Source of the DNA: a virus
DNA length: 23,298 nt
Direction: 5' to 3' (one strand)
IMG/VR virus record: IMGVR_UViG_3300037264_000383
Coordinates: 1 to 23,298 of that record
Shown here: piece after piece, positions 2,411 to 23,117 of the stretch
Layout: every line of letters begins with the position of its first letter
Position numbering within the stretch: the stretch's first letter is position 1
The notes under the pieces: model-generated
Database searches by the model: none
The model's input: only the letters and a program-made list of their open reading frames with translations
What the model was told of the DNA's origin: nothing
Position numbers and translations under genes: made by a program

Positions 2411-2620
2411 TTATTTTTTCTTTTTGCCAAGAATCTTGTTCGCCTTGGCATCAATTTTGCTCTCAGTACTTTTGCTCATACGCCCAGAGTTCACAGCCTG
2501 TGATGCTCTAGATTTTGCGTTGGCAGCATGGCTCTTATCGTTAACAGAATAAGAACGGTCAGCTCCAGCAAAGTCTGAGTTAGGTAATTTGTTTCGTTCT
2601 TTACTAGTGAGCTTCGCCAT
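2411..2620 (-). CDS. Small basic protein with RSYSVNDKSHA motif (69 aa)
   Basis: A 69 aa, lysine- and serine-rich protein. The first half has the pattern MAKLTSKERNKLP..DFAG..RSY.VND.SHAANAKSRASQ, which resembles a short conserved protein seen across phages and other mobile elements (typically KLP.. .FA.P..R.YPI.D..HA.NAL.R); I know no function for it. The C-terminus is a lysine tail. Its first codons overlap the end of the 74-aa gene by 17 bases in another frame, implying coupled translation. GGAG lies 7 bases before the ATG, with a weak 4-bp TTTG/CAAA stem around it. The family resemblance is from memory. Confidence 0.7.
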   Translation of the reverse strand: MAKLTSKERNKLPNSDFAGADRSYSVNDKSHAANAKSRASQAVNSGRMSKSTESKIDAKANKILGKKKK

Positions 2621-13180: not shown

Positions 13181-15727
13181 TTATGCGTCTACCTTGTAGA
13201 ATATTCCAGTCAGCCTCATGCCGAAGGGTTCTGTGTGATTGATAGTAAAGCTACTCTTCTTGAAATCATCCCATCCACCAAACACGGATATCTCAAAACT
13301 ACCTGTCACAGGCTCCGGTGGTGAACCGGGGTCGTACTGATTCAGGGTTTGCATTTGGATTGGGAACGTCAAGTTATCCTGAGTAATCGTACCACCAATC
13401 GTATCAGCAAATAAGAAGGTTGCGAAACGTAAGTGTTTTGTGTCAATCAGGTTTGAGCTTTTTGGATTGCCAGTCATCGATAAAGAGATAGGCATTGGTG
13501 TTATTTCAACATTAATCGGAAATCCATATTGGGCTACAGACACAGGTGTGGCGACTCCGTGTGCTTCAAAATTCACATTGCCATCAACGCCAACCGTTTC
13601 AAAGCCAAAGCCATCACCTTGCATTAATATGTCTTGAGCATTGAATCGTGGTTGACCGGAGATAACTGAGGTCGAACCCGATACTAATGGCGTGGGATAT
13701 ATTCCTGCGCAATCCACATAACTTTCAAAGCTTAATTGCTCAATGAGTAAGGTGGTCACTAATGGATAGGCTGTGACTGTGGATGATGTTCCGGCAGAAG
13801 TAATGACCAACGCATTATCATCGGCTAGGGCATCTGCTTGAGATAAGTAAATCTTGAATGTATTGGCATTAACCCCTACACCCCAATAGATTGTATTCAA
13901 TTCAATCTGAGGACTGGTCACAGGTAGCGTACCAGCAGTTGCGAACTCTATAGCAGTAAACGTATTTGTTGTCAATGCAATTGCAGTGGCCGTCAATGTA
14001 TTTGCAGTGAATCCACTAATGGCAATTGGCGCACCCGCTGTGGCTAATTGACGCTCAGTAACAAACCAAGCCCGGCCATCAAAGTTAGAGGTTACGGCTC
14101 TGAAATAAGCCTTACCATAGTTCTGTTCTAGTTCGGCATCTGTGAAGCCCGACACATTCTCACCGATAAGCGATTGGTAAATTGCCATTGTGCCGTCATC
14201 ATTTACGATGAACATGTAGCGTGAACCTGCGCGAATCTTATCAATGTAGGCAGCCTCATCAATCGGGCTGCGAATCAATTGCTCATTGGCAACCGAGATA
14301 ATATTTGAGGAATAGGCGTTGTTAAATCCATCCCAAAGCAAACTATGGGCATCATTACCTGACAATACAATAATCTGGTTATCAATCCCTTGAGGCTGAA
14401 CATTATCAGCAGGAGTTGAGTCCTGTAGGCTTAATGAGAAGTTCTGAGGGGTGACTACCGTTTCAGAAGACAAAGGCGTGGAGTACACACCTGAGTTCGT
14501 ATGAATGGTCAAGCTTCGGTAAGGCACAATAAATTGAATGTAGTTGACGGTATCTGAGGTCGGGAACCAGCTAATAGCCCCATCATCATCTGTCTCAATC
14601 AAGTCATCAAAATTATTGAACTGGTTACTTACTGAACCCCATAAGCCGTTGCTTAATGTATCAGTGTTGGCAAAGAATGATCTATTTTGAAATGAGGAGC
14701 ATTTGCGAGGCCAGCCTTGAGCATCGTTCCAAGCAGGTTCGGTGATTACAATATTGGTTCCGATAATCGCAGTCGTGTTATTAAATGGATGTTCGGATAA
14801 CACGGTGATGCTTGCCTTATTCGTTCCATTCACCGCTGTGATTCTGGCGATACCGCCATTGCCTATAATCGCGCCACCAACATAGTTTGCCGTGAAATTA
14901 AAGGTTCCTGCACTTCGAGTCATTGTGGTATTACCACTGACTGCTGTAGGGGTGAATGAGGTCGTTGAGTTATTATAAACATTCAATGGATTTTGAAAGT
15001 CAAACTGTGGCAGCGCACTAAATACCACGTTGCTGAATGTCCATGTGTTTTGGAATATCGCATTAGCACCAACACCAGCACTTGAGATAACAAACGCATT
15101 GGTATTGGCCGCAGCGTCCTCAGCTGTATAAAATACAGAGAATGATGTGGTTGTAAGGAATCGCGCAAAATAGGTTTTATTGGCATGAATCTGTGGCTTC
15201 GTTACAGGGATTGTTCCTGCGGTGAACCGCACAGGAAACCATGTGTTTGCTGTGAATGGGCCAGTGACAGTAAAGGCATTGGCTGTAAAACCTGTAATTG
15301 GTGTAGGCGCATTTGGCGCACGCTTTAAATCCATAGGAGGATAAATCCCAGTGGTTACACGGAATCGATTCTCAAGAATGGTGTGGTCAATCAGTTGAAC
15401 CTCATCAGCCAATATCGGTGAGGCAACGGTTGCTATCAGCTCACCTTCCAGATAAATATCAACAAACGCATTCCTAAATACAACAAGGTAGCAGCATTCA
15501 TTAAGGTACTGGAATGATTTAAAATAAATCTGTTTGTAGTTTGTAGCGGACAATGTGTTTAAATAAACTGTACCGAATCGCTTACCAGCTGAGCCTTGAG
15601 GAAAGCAAATGACATTCTTGGCACGCTTCAATCCTTGGTAATAGGCTTGCAGTGTTACCCGTGAGTACATCAGGGGTGACAGTTCACCCTTCGCAAAGAA
15701 ATCTTGTGACCATAGTATATGTGCCAT
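13181..15727 (-). CDS. Tail tubular protein B (nozzle), gp12-like
   Basis: An 848 aa protein that forms the tail nozzle (T7 gp12 has 794 aa). The opening MAHILWSQDFFAKGELSPLM and the RAKNVICFPQGSAGKRFGT stretch are typical of nozzle proteins of T7-like and related podoviruses, as is the middle part that reports W..V.NQFNNFDD and an IQFIVPY strand. Two copies of an inserted beta-rich domain of about 85 residues lie near 143-226 and 569-654 (separate entries). The ATG at 15727 has AAGGA 6 bases upstream; an in-frame TTG two codons earlier is unlikely. Gene order, tail tubular A immediately upstream and ejection proteins downstream, supports the call. Confidence 0.9.
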   Translation of the reverse strand: MAHILWSQDFFAKGELSPLMYSRVTLQAYYQGLKRAKNVICFPQGSAGKRFGTVYLNTLSATNYKQIYFKSFQYLNECCYLVVFRNAFVDIYLEGELIATVASPILADEVQLIDHTILENRFRVTTGIYPPMDLKRAPNAPTPITGFTANAFTVTGPFTANTWFPVRFTAGTIPVTKPQIHANKTYFARFLTTTSFSVFYTAEDAAANTNAFVISSAGVGANAIFQNTWTFSNVVFSALPQFDFQNPLNVYNNSTTSFTPTAVSGNTTMTRSAGTFNFTANYVGGAIIGNGGIARITAVNGTNKASITVLSEHPFNNTTAIIGTNIVITEPAWNDAQGWPRKCSSFQNRSFFANTDTLSNGLWGSVSNQFNNFDDLIETDDDGAISWFPTSDTVNYIQFIVPYRSLTIHTNSGVYSTPLSSETVVTPQNFSLSLQDSTPADNVQPQGIDNQIIVLSGNDAHSLLWDGFNNAYSSNIISVANEQLIRSPIDEAAYIDKIRAGSRYMFIVNDDGTMAIYQSLIGENVSGFTDAELEQNYGKAYFRAVTSNFDGRAWFVTERQLATAGAPIAISGFTANTLTATAIALTTNTFTAIEFATAGTLPVTSPQIELNTIYWGVGVNANTFKIYLSQADALADDNALVITSAGTSSTVTAYPLVTTLLIEQLSFESYVDCAGIYPTPLVSGSTSVISGQPRFNAQDILMQGDGFGFETVGVDGNVNFEAHGVATPVSVAQYGFPINVEITPMPISLSMTGNPKSSNLIDTKHLRFATFLFADTIGGTITQDNLTFPIQMQTLNQYDPGSPPEPVTGSFEISVFGGWDDFKKSSFTINHTEPFGMRLTGIFYKVDA
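13766..14023 (-). repeat. Duplicated domain in tail tubular B, copy 2
   Basis: Encodes about 85 residues beginning ISGFTANTLTATA, with GTLPVTSPQIELNTIYW in the middle and ADDNALVITSAGTSS near the end. It aligns along its length with copy 1 at 15050-15301. The DNA has diverged, so this is an old protein-level duplication or two independent insertions of one domain type. Confidence 0.65.
15050..15301 (-). repeat. Duplicated domain in tail tubular B, copy 1
   Basis: Encodes about 84 residues beginning ITGFTANAFTVTG, with GTIPVTKPQIHANKTYF in the middle and AANTNAFVISSAGVGA near the end, matching copy 2 at 13766-14023 motif by motif. Confidence 0.65.
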
Positions 15728-15738
15728 TACCAATCCTT

Positions 15739-16332
15739 TTAACCAACTTGGTTTCCAATGATTGTGCCTAGCATTCTATTATTGAGGACAGGGAAAGTAG
15801 CCTGTGTAAACTGAGGTCTATTCTGAGCCTCAACCGCTGCGCACATAGCATAAGCTGTTACTCGTTTAGCCTCTAATGGGGCGTAAAAATCTGGGCGTTG
15901 AGCACTGCTTAAAGCAAGATAGGCAGCTATCTCATAAATGAAATACTGGACAAAATGCGCTGGAAGCTTAGAAATATCCGGTTGAAATATATACTCCATC
16001 CAGAACTGACCTTGAAAGGCCGCATAGACTTTGGAGTTCTCATATATTTCCCATGCGTAAGTCTGAGGGAAAACCCTGATTGTTTTTAACCAACCTGCTG
16101 GCAATAGATAGATGGTCTTCCAAGGTGAAGGAGGCTCTTCTATTGAGATTGACAGTTGTTGGATTTGAGCGGCAAACCGCCAGTTGTTCTGAGCAAGAAC
16201 AGCGGGCAAAAGCATGTCAAAAGCCTGTTCTGCTGAAACAACTAGTTGATCACCATTTTCAAAAGAAACAATTGGGGCATGCCCAAGCAAAGATATAGCA
16301 TTGCTAACCATTGATTCTTTTGTGTTTGCCAT
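15739..16332 (-). CDS. Tail tubular protein A (adaptor/gatekeeper), gp11-like
   Basis: A 197 aa protein, almost exactly the length of T7 gp11 (196), which connects the portal to the nozzle. Diagnostic stretches are an N-terminal helix (VSNAISLLGHAPIVSF), a NNWRFAAQ motif, the Pro/Trp strand PPSPWKTIYLLPAGWLK, and the helical FVQYFIYEIAAYLALSSAQR near 125-145. AAGGA lies 8 bases before the ATG and is held in the loop of a 5-bp hairpin (16334-16351). An endonuclease gene on the other strand separates it from the head fiber gene, so it is the first late gene after that insertion; the -35 box of the endonuclease promoter overlaps its first codons. Confidence 0.9.
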   Translation of the reverse strand: MANTKESMVSNAISLLGHAPIVSFENGDQLVVSAEQAFDMLLPAVLAQNNWRFAAQIQQLSISIEEPPSPWKTIYLLPAGWLKTIRVFPQTYAWEIYENSKVYAAFQGQFWMEYIFQPDISKLPAHFVQYFIYEIAAYLALSSAQRPDFYAPLEAKRVTAYAMCAAVEAQNRPQFTQATFPVLNNRMLGTIIGNQVG

Positions 16333-16441: not shown

Positions 16442-16978
16442 ATGACACGTCCATGTGAAGCACCTTTTTGTTCAAAAAACTCTACTCGTTCTAAAGATAG
16501 ATTTTGCTAAGCTCACCGCTCTCAGTTTCAGAGAACAGGCATAAAACCATTTAAACCTATTTTGCCATATTGGGCAATAAAATGCTGCAAGCAACATGGG
16601 TTACTTATTTCAACTCATGTCTATTTAAACTCTTTCACCAATCGACTCATTTGCAAAATATGTATTAGTGAAAAAAATAAACTTAAATATAGCCCTTCCT
16701 TAGAAAAAATAAAAACAGCCAAGAAGAAAGTTCAAAACAGAAATAGAGTTATTAAATGCAAATACGCATTAACCTCAGCTGAATTTGAATCAATGCGCAC
16801 AAAACAAAACAATTTATGCGCAATTTGTTTATCTTCTTCCAAAAAATCTCTTCATATAGATCACTGTCATTCAACAGGAAAAGTCAGAGGTCTTCTTTGT
16901 ATGAAATGTAATATTGCGTTAGGTCTTTTCAAAGACTCCCTCAACTTACTAGAGAGAGCCATTGAGTATTTATCTTAA
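16442..16978 (+). pseudogene. HNH/endonuclease VII gene interrupted by an early TAA
   Basis: An ATG at 16442 with a good GAGGAA site 7 bases upstream opens a frame that hits TAA at 16508-16510 after 22 codons and then stays open to 16978. Read through, it spans 178 positions. The first part (MTRPCEAPFC..SKDRFC, then the stop, then AHRSQFQRTG) looks like a Cys-x4-Cys...Cys-x2-His zinc knuckle of a kind found at the start of phage HNH nucleases, and the stop lies inside the Cys-x2-His. A single base change from AAA, CAA or GAA would give TAA. It is either a decaying homing-type endonuclease, a read-through gene, or a sequencing error. The composition is much more AT- and Lys-rich than the flanking late genes, which fits a recent insertion. 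Confidence 0.65.
16562..16978 (+). CDS. Endonuclease VII-like HNH domain (intact part after the stop)
   Basis: The uninterrupted frame from a TTG codon: 138 aa. Cys-rich residues 9-35 (KCCKQHG, ICKICISEK) come first, then a very basic linker, then the recombination endonuclease VII domain: LCAICL, HIDHCHSTGKVRGLLCMKC and NIALGLFKD near 88-125. These give two Cys-x2-Cys zinc pairs and the catalytic His-Asp-His-Cys-His with the closing Asn. The TTG has no ribosome binding site, so it is not a convincing natural start; expression would need read-through from 16442 or internal initiation. The TAA stop overlaps the head fiber stop on the other strand. It is probably a free-standing homing-type endonuclease inserted between head and tail genes. 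Confidence 0.6.
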   Translation: MPYWAIKCCKQHGLLISTHVYLNSFTNRLICKICISEKNKLKYSPSLEKIKTAKKKVQNRNRVIKCKYALTSAEFESMRTKQNNLCAICLSSSKKSLHIDHCHSTGKVRGLLCMKCNIALGLFKDSLNLLERAIEYLS

Positions 16979-19722: not shown

Positions 19723-21324
19723 CTACGCTCCTTGTGCTGATTCCTGTTCATCAGGGTTTGACATTGCTTGGTCAGACATGTTCTGCGCATTTTGAGCCGC
19801 AGCTTGAACCTGCTCTGGTGAGTTCAGGTATCTTGCATCTACTTGCATTTGCTCGGCTATGAGGTAAGGGGCCAGTCCGGGGTTGATATACATCAACGCA
19901 GGGCCGGGGCCAAACACACCTTGCATCAGCTGGTAGTACTGGGTGAACCTAGCTATATCCTGTTGACCTTTCATTAACGCTAAAGGCGAACGGTATCTGA
20001 AATTAACTTTCACTCCTTTAATTTCCAGCTTGGGTAGAATCCCCATCTTGTCTAACAAGAAGGCGCACCGCTTAATAACAGGCCACAAGAATTCTTGCTG
20101 TAGCCGTGAAAATAATGGCCCAATCCTTTGAGCCAAATTCTGTTGTTGAATCATGACCGCAGCAGCCGTCTCAGGTTGAATGCTTTGGTTAGGATTCACG
20201 TCATTGAATAGAAGGGTCTTAATCTGATTACGCAAATCCAGAATGGTCAATTGACTGAATTGAGGATTACTGGAGTCAGGTAGAGGTATAAGTGGAGGCG
20301 AGCCGCCTGAGCCGATAGGCGCAATAGGTATGACCGTAAACGGTGCAAGCTTAAATGTATGTGGATTGAATACCGCATCTGAAAACCCCATGTACGGTTT
20401 GAACGTGTTTAGATTGGCCGCTGCTAACTCTATTCTCGCGAGTTCATTCAAAGAGATAATTGAAGGCAGTGCGTCCATGACTGGGCCGCGACCAAAGACT
20501 TCTGAGTTTACTTTCTGGAATCGCCAAACGATTCCGGGGTTCGACTCGAATTCTTCCATTAGGACTGGACACTCTTCCGTGCCAACCATATAGAGATATT
20601 GTTTTTTTCTATGAGGCATGAACATCACGCCTTCATAAAGCTTCTGAACAACCGCATCAGGATTGTCAGCCAGCATTTGCATCATGTCGGGTGTGAGTAC
20701 TGCGTTCTTCCAACGCAAAGTTATTTCATTAATCTTTACATCTTCCCAGTAGCGATACCACGACTCAACCTTCCCTGTCATGGCCTCTTCTACTGCCAGC
20801 TTATCCATAGGAACTGAGCTGAATAATAAGGGCTGCTCATCGGTAAATCCGTTTATCACCAAGCAGCTTGTTCCGATTGCTAAGTCAAAGTAGCACTCAT
20901 TGATGACCACATCAAAGTTTGATTCATGAATGTAGACGAACAGCTTTCGCATGTAGTTGTCTAGCATTTCCTGAATCGTATTGCGGTCAATGTCCTCTTC
21001 TGTATTGAAAGTCTCATCAACGTCTAAGTACCCCCACTGAACCTGCGGAGGAGTCATAGCGTCATGAATCTTTGATACGAATGTCTTTGTGGCTTCCACG
21101 GCTGTAGTATCATAAATACGACTCGCCTTAAATTCCCCTTGCTGTTCCTTCGGTCGATAGAATCTATTCCGATTAGGCACGGCATAGTAATAACATGCTT
21201 CATGTAATGCTGCCCATAATTGAGCAACCTCAGCAGCAGAGCCTAATCTTTTTCTAAACAACACCCACAACTTCTTCGGGTCAAGCGCGACCGTACTAGG
21301 GTCTACTGCTTCCGGGTAGTCCAT
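19723..21324 (-). CDS. Portal (head-tail connector) protein
   Basis: A 533 aa portal, almost the same length as T7 gp8 (536), forming the dodecameric ring at one capsid vertex through which DNA passes. Family features: an N-terminal helix with VLFRKRLGSAAEVAQLWAAL; YDTTAVEATKTFVSKIHDAM..P near 70-92; FDVVINECYFDLAIGTSCLV near 135-155; the W..RYWEDVKIN region; VWRFQKVNSEVFGRGPVMDA near 268; and a C-terminal Gln/Ala-rich tail. AAGGG lies 7 bases before the ATG. TerL motor docking and tail tubular A attachment are its expected contacts. The call is firm. Confidence 0.95.
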   Translation of the reverse strand: MDYPEAVDPSTVALDPKKLWVLFRKRLGSAAEVAQLWAALHEACYYYAVPNRNRFYRPKEQQGEFKASRIYDTTAVEATKTFVSKIHDAMTPPQVQWGYLDVDETFNTEEDIDRNTIQEMLDNYMRKLFVYIHESNFDVVINECYFDLAIGTSCLVINGFTDEQPLLFSSVPMDKLAVEEAMTGKVESWYRYWEDVKINEITLRWKNAVLTPDMMQMLADNPDAVVQKLYEGVMFMPHRKKQYLYMVGTEECPVLMEEFESNPGIVWRFQKVNSEVFGRGPVMDALPSIISLNELARIELAAANLNTFKPYMGFSDAVFNPHTFKLAPFTVIPIAPIGSGGSPPLIPLPDSSNPQFSQLTILDLRNQIKTLLFNDVNPNQSIQPETAAAVMIQQQNLAQRIGPLFSRLQQEFLWPVIKRCAFLLDKMGILPKLEIKGVKVNFRYRSPLALMKGQQDIARFTQYYQLMQGVFGPGPALMYINPGLAPYLIAEQMQVDARYLNSPEQVQAAAQNAQNMSDQAMSNPDEQESAQGA

Positions 21325-21342: not shown

Positions 21343-21597
21343 TTAGCCCAATGTGTCGGAATAACCCATCACATTGCCGCGCATATCCGTGCGCCCTTGA
21401 GCTGCCATTTCTTTAGCAGCCGCATAATTCTGAACTTGATTAGAGGTCTTCATTTGATTCATCACTCTCTGATTAGGAGAGTACTGAATATCCGGCCCAC
21501 TAATCGGGTCGCCTAAGCGCATGGCCTCACCAGATGGATTCATTGTCTTCATCTGTACCATAGGCTTACCTTTCAACAAATTGGACATAGTAGCCAT
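21343..21597 (-). CDS. Small Met-rich protein ending GYSDTLG (84 aa)
   Basis: An 84 aa basic, methionine-rich protein (11 Met), with repeated QMKT units (VQMKTMN, NQMKTSN), a central IQYSPNQ motif and no membrane segment. GGAG lies 6 bases before the ATG. It is the gene just upstream of the portal and is separated from the 96-aa gene by 14 bases. The last seven residues, GYSDTLG, are identical to those of that neighbour although the codons differ. I do not recognise the family. Position suggests an early head or packaging factor; the shared tail suggests a common binding partner or cleavage site (inference). Confidence 0.7.
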   Translation of the reverse strand: MATMSNLLKGKPMVQMKTMNPSGEAMRLGDPISGPDIQYSPNQRVMNQMKTSNQVQNYAAAKEMAAQGRTDMRGNVMGYSDTLG

Positions 21598-21611
21598 TTG
21601 TTTCTCCGTGG

Positions 21612-21902
21612 TTAGCCTAGTGTGTCTGAATAGCCTGCGCTTGCCTCATCCATAAAGCCCGGGGCGCGATAAGCACGCTTGGCAGTACGTAATTGTTTTT
21701 CGGCAACTTTGTTTTTCTGAGTGGCTCGGTCTTCATCGACACGCGCAGACTCTTTGGCAATCTCTTCTTTCTGAGTCTTGTAGTAATCGATTTGTTCGGC
21801 AACCGCTCGATTCGCAGCCCGTCTATCGGCAGAATGTTGGTGAGGAATGACGTTAGAGATAGCACGCTCTGCTTTCTTTAACCATTTTGATAATTTGCTC
21901 AT
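21612..21902 (-). CDS. Small coiled-coil protein ending GYSDTLG (96 aa)
   Basis: A 96 aa strongly charged, helical protein. A basic N-terminus (MSKLSKWLKKAERAI) leads into a long Lys/Glu/Arg/Gln helix across about 35-80 that could be a coiled coil, then a RAYRAPGFMDEASA linker and the terminal GYSDTLG shared with the next gene. The ATG at 21902 is chosen because AAGGGAG lies 9 bases upstream; an in-frame TTG at 21926 has no such site. The ribosome binding site is in the loop of a TTTAA/TTAAA hairpin. No family recognised; it sits between TerS and portal. Confidence 0.7.
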   Translation of the reverse strand: MSKLSKWLKKAERAISNVIPHQHSADRRAANRAVAEQIDYYKTQKEEIAKESARVDEDRATQKNKVAEKQLRTAKRAYRAPGFMDEASAGYSDTLG

Positions 21903-21905
21903 TGG

Positions 21906-21921
21906 TTTAATCTCCCTTAAA
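21906..21921 (-). promoter_or_regulatory. Hairpin with ribosome binding site in its loop, 96-aa gene
   Basis: Minus strand TTTAA-GGGAGA-TTAAA: a perfect but all-AT 5-bp stem with GGGAG in the 6-base loop, ending 3 bases before the ATG. A looser version (TTTA...TAAA) surrounds GGGAG in front of the head fiber gene. Confidence 0.35.
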
Positions 21922-22004
21922 TCCAAATGTGAACATATATAACTTTCTTCTGAAACTCCATTTCATCTATTACACGATTTACAAACTGAATCGTATATGG
22001 GATA

Positions 22005-22586
22005 TTAATCTGTTTTTTCAGCTTTCTCAATTGAGTTAGAATTGTTGACACTGTGTACCCCCATTCTAGCTACATCGTCTTTAATAATATCCAATTGTTC
22101 TTGCATTTTAAATGTCTCAAATGCTCTAATGCCCACATTTATTGATTCCATCAATTGCTTAATCTCGGAAGCATTAAACTCTTCTGTGTTAGCCAAGGCC
22201 ACAAGCTCTTGGTATTGCTTGTAGGGATCGGATTTGGGATTGATTCCCATTCTAACTCTATTTTTACCTACACCATACCTCATAGCACCCGTTAAACGCC
22301 AGTGGTCGAAGTTAAAGAATTCTTCATTCTTTCCCAACTCACCTTCCTGTTCCCAGTTGTCACGGGAAAATACCATACCCATATCATAGCACTCGCGGAA
22401 AGGTTTATACTTCCCAATCCACCGATAGAATGCCGCCTTACTAATTCCTGCCTTCTTACAAAAGGCCGTCATGGTTCCTTCTTCGTTCATAACTGTTAGA
22501 ATCATTGGGCAGTGAACCGCTTCTTCGTACTTGGTTCCACCGTCTTTGATTTGCAAATAAAGCTTTTTTGCATCAATCTTTGACAT
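22005..22586 (-). CDS. Terminase small subunit (TerS)
   Basis: A 193 aa protein with an N-terminal helix-turn-helix of the small-terminase type: MTAFCKKAGISKAAFYRWI near 39-57, followed by FRECYDMGM, and a helical oligomerisation part to about residue 175. It is predicted to recognise the packaging start on phage DNA and to regulate TerL. It leads the minus-strand late block, while TerL is at its far end; in T7 the two are close neighbours. The AAAGGG ribosome binding site is 10 bases from the ATG in linear distance, rather far, but a 7-bp hairpin places it in a loop beside the start (22588-22606). The gene diverges from the lysozyme-like gene. A 78-base gap follows it, with no convincing signal. 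Confidence 0.85.
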   Translation of the reverse strand: MSKIDAKKLYLQIKDGGTKYEEAVHCPMILTVMNEEGTMTAFCKKAGISKAAFYRWIGKYKPFRECYDMGMVFSRDNWEQEGELGKNEEFFNFDHWRLTGAMRYGVGKNRVRMGINPKSDPYKQYQELVALANTEEFNASEIKQLMESINVGIRAFETFKMQEQLDIIKDDVARMGVHSVNNSNSIEKAEKTD

Positions 22587-22640: not shown

Positions 22641-23117
22641 ATGACAATGCTAGATTGCTCCCAGTTCCGTTCTCTAATTATAGAGCCAGTACTTTCAAAG
22701 TTAAAAGTGTATTCAAAAGGCGCAGAAGAACTCCTTGTCTTCACATGCGCGGCTGAATCATTGGGTGGTACGCTCCTCGCTCAAATTAAAGGCCCAGCCC
22801 TTGGAATCTTCCAGATGGAACCGAACACATACACCGACATATGGACTAACTATATACGGGCGCGTAACCAATTGGCTACCCTAATGGCTCTCCATTTTGG
22901 ATGTAACCGTGTTCCTGATATTGACCGGATGATTTATGACCTTCATTTTGCGACTGCAATGGCACGCATACATTATCTTCGGGTAACGGCAAATATACCT
23001 GACCCAGCGAATGTAGATGCGATATGGGATTACTATAAGAAATACTACAATACTGAGCAAGGCAAAGCTAAGAAAGAGGACGCAATTAAAAAGTATCAAG
23101 CGTTCATTCGCACTTAG
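22641..23117 (+). CDS. Lysozyme / transglycosylase-like protein (158 aa)
   Basis: A 158 aa protein with a lysozyme-fold pattern: a likely catalytic Glu39 in TCAAESLGG, the GPALGIFQMEPNTYTDIW segment at 51-68 that corresponds to the G-x-x-Q-x-P region of transglycosylases, a helical FATAMARIHYLRV near 103-115, and DAIWDYYKKYYNTEQGKAK near 126-144. It is predicted to cleave peptidoglycan, either as the endolysin or as a virion enzyme. No signal peptide or membrane segment, so an endolysin would need a holin, none of which is visible here. It is on the plus strand, divergent from TerS. The AAGGA site is 3 bases from the first ATG and 9 from a second ATG at 22647, which may be the real start. Confidence 0.7.
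   Translation: MTMLDCSQFRSLIIEPVLSKLKVYSKGAEELLVFTCAAESLGGTLLAQIKGPALGIFQMEPNTYTDIWTNYIRARNQLATLMALHFGCNRVPDIDRMIYDLHFATAMARIHYLRVTANIPDPANVDAIWDYYKKYYNTEQGKAKKEDAIKKYQAFIRT

Follow-up and report, generated by a model that had tools for sequence, protein, structure and literature searches.

The window, a 23,298-base IMG/VR virus record carrying a T7-type structural module on its minus strand, contains two adjacent minus-strand genes whose products, of 96 and 84 aa, are otherwise unrelated and each end in GYSDTLG followed by the stop codon. This shared tail is a real, protein-level feature. We propose that it is a short linear docking peptide that would seat both small proteins in the head-tail channel, a reading to which we give an even chance. 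An earlier note on this DNA had described the pair and its common ending, and translation confirmed both (Table 1).

Along the minus strand, the gene order is a weakly supported terminase small subunit, a 44-aa ORF, the 96-aa gene, the 84-aa gene and the portal, with both tail genes placed between the terminase small subunit and the PF12236-type portal. After the portal come a scaffold-like gene, the major head protein, an adaptor-like gene, a nozzle-like gene and an internal virion protein with an endolysin domain. Judging from position and length, the adaptor-like and nozzle-like products would fill the roles that their names imply. The 44-aa ORF, located between the terminase small subunit and the 96-aa gene and starting inside the 3′ end of the former, is a conserved small gene. 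It ends in ..KKVIYVHIWI and was seen in 35 of the 35 distinct loci with the 96-aa family (34 plus L105).

Table 1. Position and support of the features of the window discussed in the text
Feature	Coordinates	Strand	Support
96-aa small protein (P0002)	21612..21902	-	Translation, relatives, AlphaFold
Last seven codons of the 96-aa gene, GYSDTLG + stop	21612..21635	-	Translation
84-aa small protein (P0001)	21343..21597	-	Translation, relatives, portal tree, AlphaFold
Last seven codons of the 84-aa gene, GYSDTLG + stop	21343..21366	-	Translation
Portal / head-tail connector	19723..21324	-	PF12236, E 2.9e-70; phrog_332
Adaptor-like tail protein, candidate docking ring	15739..16332	-	phrog_394 'tail protein', E 6.6e-21
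Nozzle-like tail protein, T7 gp12 position, candidate docking partner	13181..15733	-	phrog_376 'tail protein', E 6.3e-69
Terminase small subunit, probable	22005..22586	-	phrog_24579, E 0.0018, weak; helix-turn-helix below the Pfam cut-off
44-aa ORF, GTG start	21917..22051	-	Translation; kept in relatives

The back-translated motif plus stop occurs twice in the window, as compared with 0.00 occurrences expected from 100 shuffles. Given the C-terminal composition of 1,275 genes from relatives, two given proteins would match at seven terminal residues with a probability of 3e-9, or about 1.3e-6 over the 435 pairs formed by 30 genes. As an empirical control, we reduced 102 relatives with a portal to 75 distinct loci, without the window, and compared their tiled plus-strand genes. 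Only 5 of 6,323 within-locus gene pairs had at least four terminal residues in common, and all five were this gene pair; three terminal residues were common to five further within-locus pairs, two of which (in L008 and L010) were again this gene pair. Among random between-locus pairs, 28 of 178,502 had at least four terminal residues in common, a count that will include orthologues at shifted positions. The shuffles, the within-locus control and the composition estimate exclude a chance match. No third ORF of at least 40 aa ending in TLG was found in the longer contigs of seven relatives. A profile-profile comparison of both families aligned only the tail, pairing columns 87-96 with 76-85, the last ten. 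With nothing alike upstream, full-length homology of the two proteins is excluded, and the earlier remark that their bodies have no other clear similarity holds.

The tails differ at the codons that the earlier note had listed (96-aa/84-aa: GGC/GGT, TCA/TCC and CTA/TTG). Across ten genomes, the two tails of one genome differ by 0.79 per synonymous site, no less than tails from different genomes do, and most tail amino acids agree between both proteins in all ten. Because the synonymous sites are saturated, the match must be held at the protein level, as had been claimed, and a recent DNA copy is excluded as its source. The same saturation in our view refutes the idea that the tail arose by chance or is a nucleotide-level signal, such as a ribosome-binding site or a regulatory element translated by coincidence. 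Each tail's stop codon does lie at most 20 nt from the next start codon, as such an element might require, but synonymous codons differ throughout, no shuffle matches are expected and the within-locus matches of four or more residues all fall on this one pair, leaving this explanation with a negligible probability.

Constraint on the tail is clearest in the 84-aa gene, with a pN/pS of 0.11 in the tail, 0.26 in the preceding 23 codons and 0.34 before those, the tail being the lowest of the three C-terminal segments measured. The tail of the 96-aa gene, conversely, is no more constrained than the rest of that gene (0.24 versus 0.25). Covariation of both tails within genomes was not significant in nine genomes, leaving out the near-copy L007 (53 of 63 residues match versus 51.2 expected, p=0.08). 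L010 (287-577 and 590-847) is the only genome seen with the final residue changed in both proteins, to GYGETLA and GYSDTLA, while its sister L012 ends in ALSDTLG and GYSDTLG. This double G to A change is a single event, suggestive of linked tails.

To judge from its distribution, the 96-aa family is old and conserved. Among relatives whose portals are about 50% identical or more, it is present in each one whose sequence extends beyond the portal on the upstream side, and its gene is always followed immediately by the portal or by the 84-aa gene. In 33 of the 35 distinct loci (34 loci, 32 of them with LG, plus L105, and excluding L120, L144, L146 and L169), the protein ends in L-G or in L-G followed by one or two further residues, an ending seen in 4 of 544 genes located elsewhere in the set of 75 loci. 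Five more loci have a family member ending in LG (L176, L183, L184, L186 and L188), and L188, a Burkholderiales MAG contig, is the single portal relative found in GTDB genomes. The two exceptions are L010, with TLA, and L018, with TMG. These are also the nearest approach (in L010 in both proteins, in L018 in the 96-aa protein) to a close homologue that has lost the tail and kept the rest, which the earlier note had named as the observation that would count against it and which was not found. By eye, the homologues in L106 (..TLGDSTGLPNKLGTA), L108, L110 and L188 carry the LG end twice in tandem in one protein. AlphaFold, run on the family alignment, predicts helices at residues 3-18 and 22-79 of the 96-aa protein, with a mean pLDDT of 91-92 at residues 41-70 and 54 for the last six. 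A tblastn search of the 96-aa protein against 50,697 phage records gave zero matches at E<=10. Searches for relatives of solved structure found none for either of the two families or for the distant module described below; the weak matches, such as XPA, ZapB and gp41, look like coiled-coil or basic-stretch matches.

The 84-aa family is restricted to a close clade of ten genomes (the window, L002, L005 and L007-L013), and where present in relatives its gene also sits just upstream of the portal. All its members carry the tail or a one-residue variant, ending in GY[SAT]DTLG or, in L010, GYSDTLA, and the conserved C-terminal part reads QGRTDMRGNVxGYSDTLG. The AlphaFold model from the family alignment contains one helix, at residues 43-66, in an otherwise low-confidence chain (mean pLDDT 61.8). 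In single-chain models of both proteins the tails have low confidence, and both are probably small bodies with flexible ends, a property required of a tethering peptide.

On a maximum-likelihood portal tree with 23 rows, the distribution of the 84-aa gene requires two changes. The simplest account is that it was gained once, at a well-supported fork (100/97), and lost in L176, although two gains are a possible alternative. L176 is placed among the carriers and does not have the gene, indicating that the 84-aa protein is dispensable. In the nearest outgroups of the carriers, the 96-aa protein already ends in xS[DN][TK][LM]G; the portal tree and the distribution thus indicate that the 96-aa protein had its tail by the time the 84-aa gene arrived. 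This order, and the appearance of the 84-aa gene, most simply once, beside the 96-aa gene, would also suit a relic, in which a new 84-aa gene took over its 3′ end from the 96-aa gene by partial duplication or recombination. We nevertheless consider a mere relic unlikely, since the synonymous sites are saturated (pS 0.79) yet most amino acids are the same in ten genomes, and since the profile comparison found no similarity upstream of the tail. Saturated synonymous sites with kept amino acids indicate that selection now holds the tails, whatever their origin.

Related ends also occur in distant podophages, whose portals are about 21-33% identical (the best 80 of at least 596 portal relatives). 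Their small genes before the portal have different bodies and related R-rich/LLS...TLG ends, exemplified by ..RRGRRSLLTG..KNTLGA in Hodr, ..STTLGG (gp43) and ..ANTLGAKTKV (gp42) in MEP301, and ..DTLLGK (gp63), ..SLTLGE (gp62) and ..RSLLGS (gp61) in HTVC035P; TLG-type ends are sometimes found on two or three neighbouring small genes. A profile of this module (R/GG-RR-LLS...TLG), built in four rounds from ten ends with seeds near portals and searched over all genes, matched 51 of 1,275 genes at E<1e-3, all of which end from 2,305 nt before to 7 nt after the portal start. The module begins well upstream of TLG and often extends beyond it, for instance as TLGxxRNPR. After thinning to 75 loci there were 31 module genes, with 25 loci containing one, three containing two and 47 none; 35 of these 47 are 96-aa family loci and 12 have neither. 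Before thinning, two neighbouring genes passed the threshold in HTVC035P, L127, L128, L155 and L165.

Outside the 96-aa loci, T/K/N/S-LG was present in the last 12 residues of 28 of 179 portal-proximal small genes versus 3 of 261 others (Fisher 3.6e-9, a p-value that is too small because the loci are related; the split counts L120, L144, L146 and L169 as 96-aa family and L105 as outside). Likewise, an RNP motif anywhere in the protein was found in 27 of 391 portal-proximal small genes versus 1 of 544 others, again in related loci, often just after TLG or replacing it. At least two portal-proximal small genes had RNP in common in 10 loci, as compared with a mean of 3.7 and a maximum of 9 in 5,000 permutations. 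Two neighbouring pre-portal small genes with RNP near the C-terminus, with or without TLG, were observed in L119, L121, L129, L157, L123 and L126. TLG-type ends therefore occur in many, not all, distant podophages, and the feature is not universal: by eye, there was no TLG-ending small gene before the portal in Vibrio phages 1.138.O and CKB-S2, Alteromonas ZP6, T7 or HTVC019P, and the only ORF of SIO1 that fits the end pattern is an unrelated one.

The window families appear only weakly linked to this distant module. Both consist of small proteins that end in T/K-L-G and whose genes closely precede the portal, and neither reaches the threshold of the module profile (E<1e-3, last 45 residues). 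A clean profile of the 96-aa C-terminus gave a best E of 0.10 outside both families (MEP301 gp42), setting aside L105, which is a missed family member. In rank tests, the 96-aa profile ranked module genes up (p 1.4e-7) but not significantly so without its last 8 residues (p 0.056), and the 84-aa profile had no preference for them (p 0.24). At most, therefore, the end itself is shared with the module.

The closest functional precedent comes from T7. Its gp6.7 and gp7.3 are small virion proteins whose genes lie shortly before that of the portal. In the cryo-EM structures of PMC11784390, the ordered part of gp7.3 (99 aa) is residues 84-98; six copies sit where nozzle and adaptor meet, each fixed to two neighbouring gp12 nozzle subunits, and the 83 N-terminal residues, which are not resolved, are taken to account for density around the DNA end. 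Twelve copies of gp6.7 are described as contacting the portal barrel through an N-terminal loop, whereas once ejection has occurred gp6.7 binds gp14 and the nozzle interface (PMC11784390). We compared gp7.3 in PDB 9jyz and gp6.7 (88 aa) in PDB 9jyy, 9jyz and 9jz0. Like them, the window proteins are small and encoded just upstream of a T7-type portal gene; unlike them, they are known from genes alone, whereas the virion location of the T7 proteins is proven. No sequence homology of the window proteins to gp7.3 or gp6.7 was detected with PHROG, Pfam or PDB, and gp7.3 ends in ..SSGGGINI whereas the window proteins end in TLG. Among 32 test proteins, the module profile ranked gp7.3 first (E 0.018, its score reached by 0 of 500 shuffles), aligning residues 69-87, which adjoin and slightly overlap the docked segment; on the same set it gave an E of 2 for P0001 and no match for P0002. 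These results are only suggestive of homology between the module and gp7.3. Similarity between gp6.7 and gp7.3 themselves was not significant, with 137 of 2,000 shuffles scoring as high. In the T7-like phages Peru-2 and ICP3, gp6.7 and gp7.3 counterparts are described as not readily identifiable (PMC13320782).

Two PHROG families provided further comparisons. The first, phrog_831 (for instance HTVC035P gp63 and the C-terminus of gp61), also comprises small portal-proximal proteins with a C-terminal GRKSTILTG...DTLLG module, and its one profile matches two genes in one three-gene run. It does not match the window proteins, however, and its module extends further upstream than the window end. 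The second, phrog_541 (129 aa, annotated as head-tail adaptor), weakly matched residues 3-53 of the 96-aa protein (E 0.00058). This match covers 61 of 129 profile positions, falling short of full length, and involves the helix, not the tail; it is possibly a coiled-coil match, and the window already has a separate adaptor-like gene.

The conserved tails, the low pN/pS of the 84-aa tail and the tail-sharing in distant podophages fit a docking signal for a common partner, as the earlier note had suggested, although the partner that we favour has changed. That note had named portal, scaffold or terminase. Since T7 gp7.3 docks its C-terminus at the nozzle-adaptor junction, we favour the nozzle or adaptor; the portal also stays a candidate because T7 gp6.7 binds the portal barrel. 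With the precedent docking on the nozzle, a common partner in the nozzle, adaptor or portal channel appears likelier than scaffold or terminase. The T7 precedent and the flexible ends of the models together suggest that GYSDTLG most likely places both proteins at a single type of ring site. The 96-aa and 84-aa proteins, working like gp6.7 and gp7.3, would share this docking site, most likely at the nozzle/adaptor junction or, failing that, on the portal; the tail would secure their incorporation into the virion, and later they would be ejected or displaced. The older, helical 96-aa protein would have had the tail first, and the 84-aa protein, joining the lineage later with the same tail, may occupy the same or equivalent sites. 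Virion location, docking and partner are our inference, and the window proteins would represent a variant of the small portal-adjacent podophage proteins, for which a docking role is the best, albeit unproven, reading of the sequences.

Two other roles for the tail fit the data less well. It could be a C-terminal degron, through which host proteases would clear the small proteins once these have been ejected or when assembly has failed, but we regard this as quite improbable, and L-G is not known as a bacterial C-degron. In L010 both proteins end in LA, as a degron might, although the distant module starts well upstream of TLG and often runs past it, neither of which a degron needs. T7 gp6.7 and gp7.3 are nonetheless reported to be degraded by cellular proteases (PMC11784390). 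Still less probable is a signal for maturation cleavage, also put forward in the earlier note, or for prohead targeting. Both genes adjoin head genes, as this would predict, but a cut at a motif located at the very end would remove almost nothing, and comparison with PHROGs gave no match to a protease family for 18 proteins of the window, some of which have no match at all, the window being part of a genome; the suggested cleavage gained no support.

More broadly, ejectosomal podophages might use a C-terminal docking code, by which unrelated small proteins would enter one ring of the portal-tail channel via the same peptide; we advance this tentatively, rating its chances somewhat below even. 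Such a code would have peptides of TLG type, RNP type and, perhaps, the GINI type of T7; new virion proteins could be added by gaining the peptide alone, and the peptide might double inside one protein, as in L106, L108, L110 and L188. A peptide tag, not a whole domain, would then be enough for phages to load additional cargo into the ejection channel. Small proteins beside podophage portals are mostly annotated as hypothetical, and a shared terminal peptide provides a sequence handle for finding them and predicts a common binding site. Among the matches listed in the open-licence literature, judged by titles and the opening of abstracts, we found no description of a shared C-terminal peptide, nor is one mentioned in the portions available of PMC11440229, PMC10386132 or PMC10575957.

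Elsewhere in the window, the 69-aa protein at 2411-2620 (minus strand) matches phrog_16160 (E 1.3e-26), and the 158-aa protein at 22641-23117 (plus strand, opposite to the structural genes) matches phrog_3108 (E 7.5e-38). Among the structural genes, and also on the opposite strand, lies a 138-aa ORF (16562-16978, plus strand) with a CxxC...HxDHCH...CxxC pattern, which we take to resemble a homing enzyme of the HNH / endonuclease VII type.
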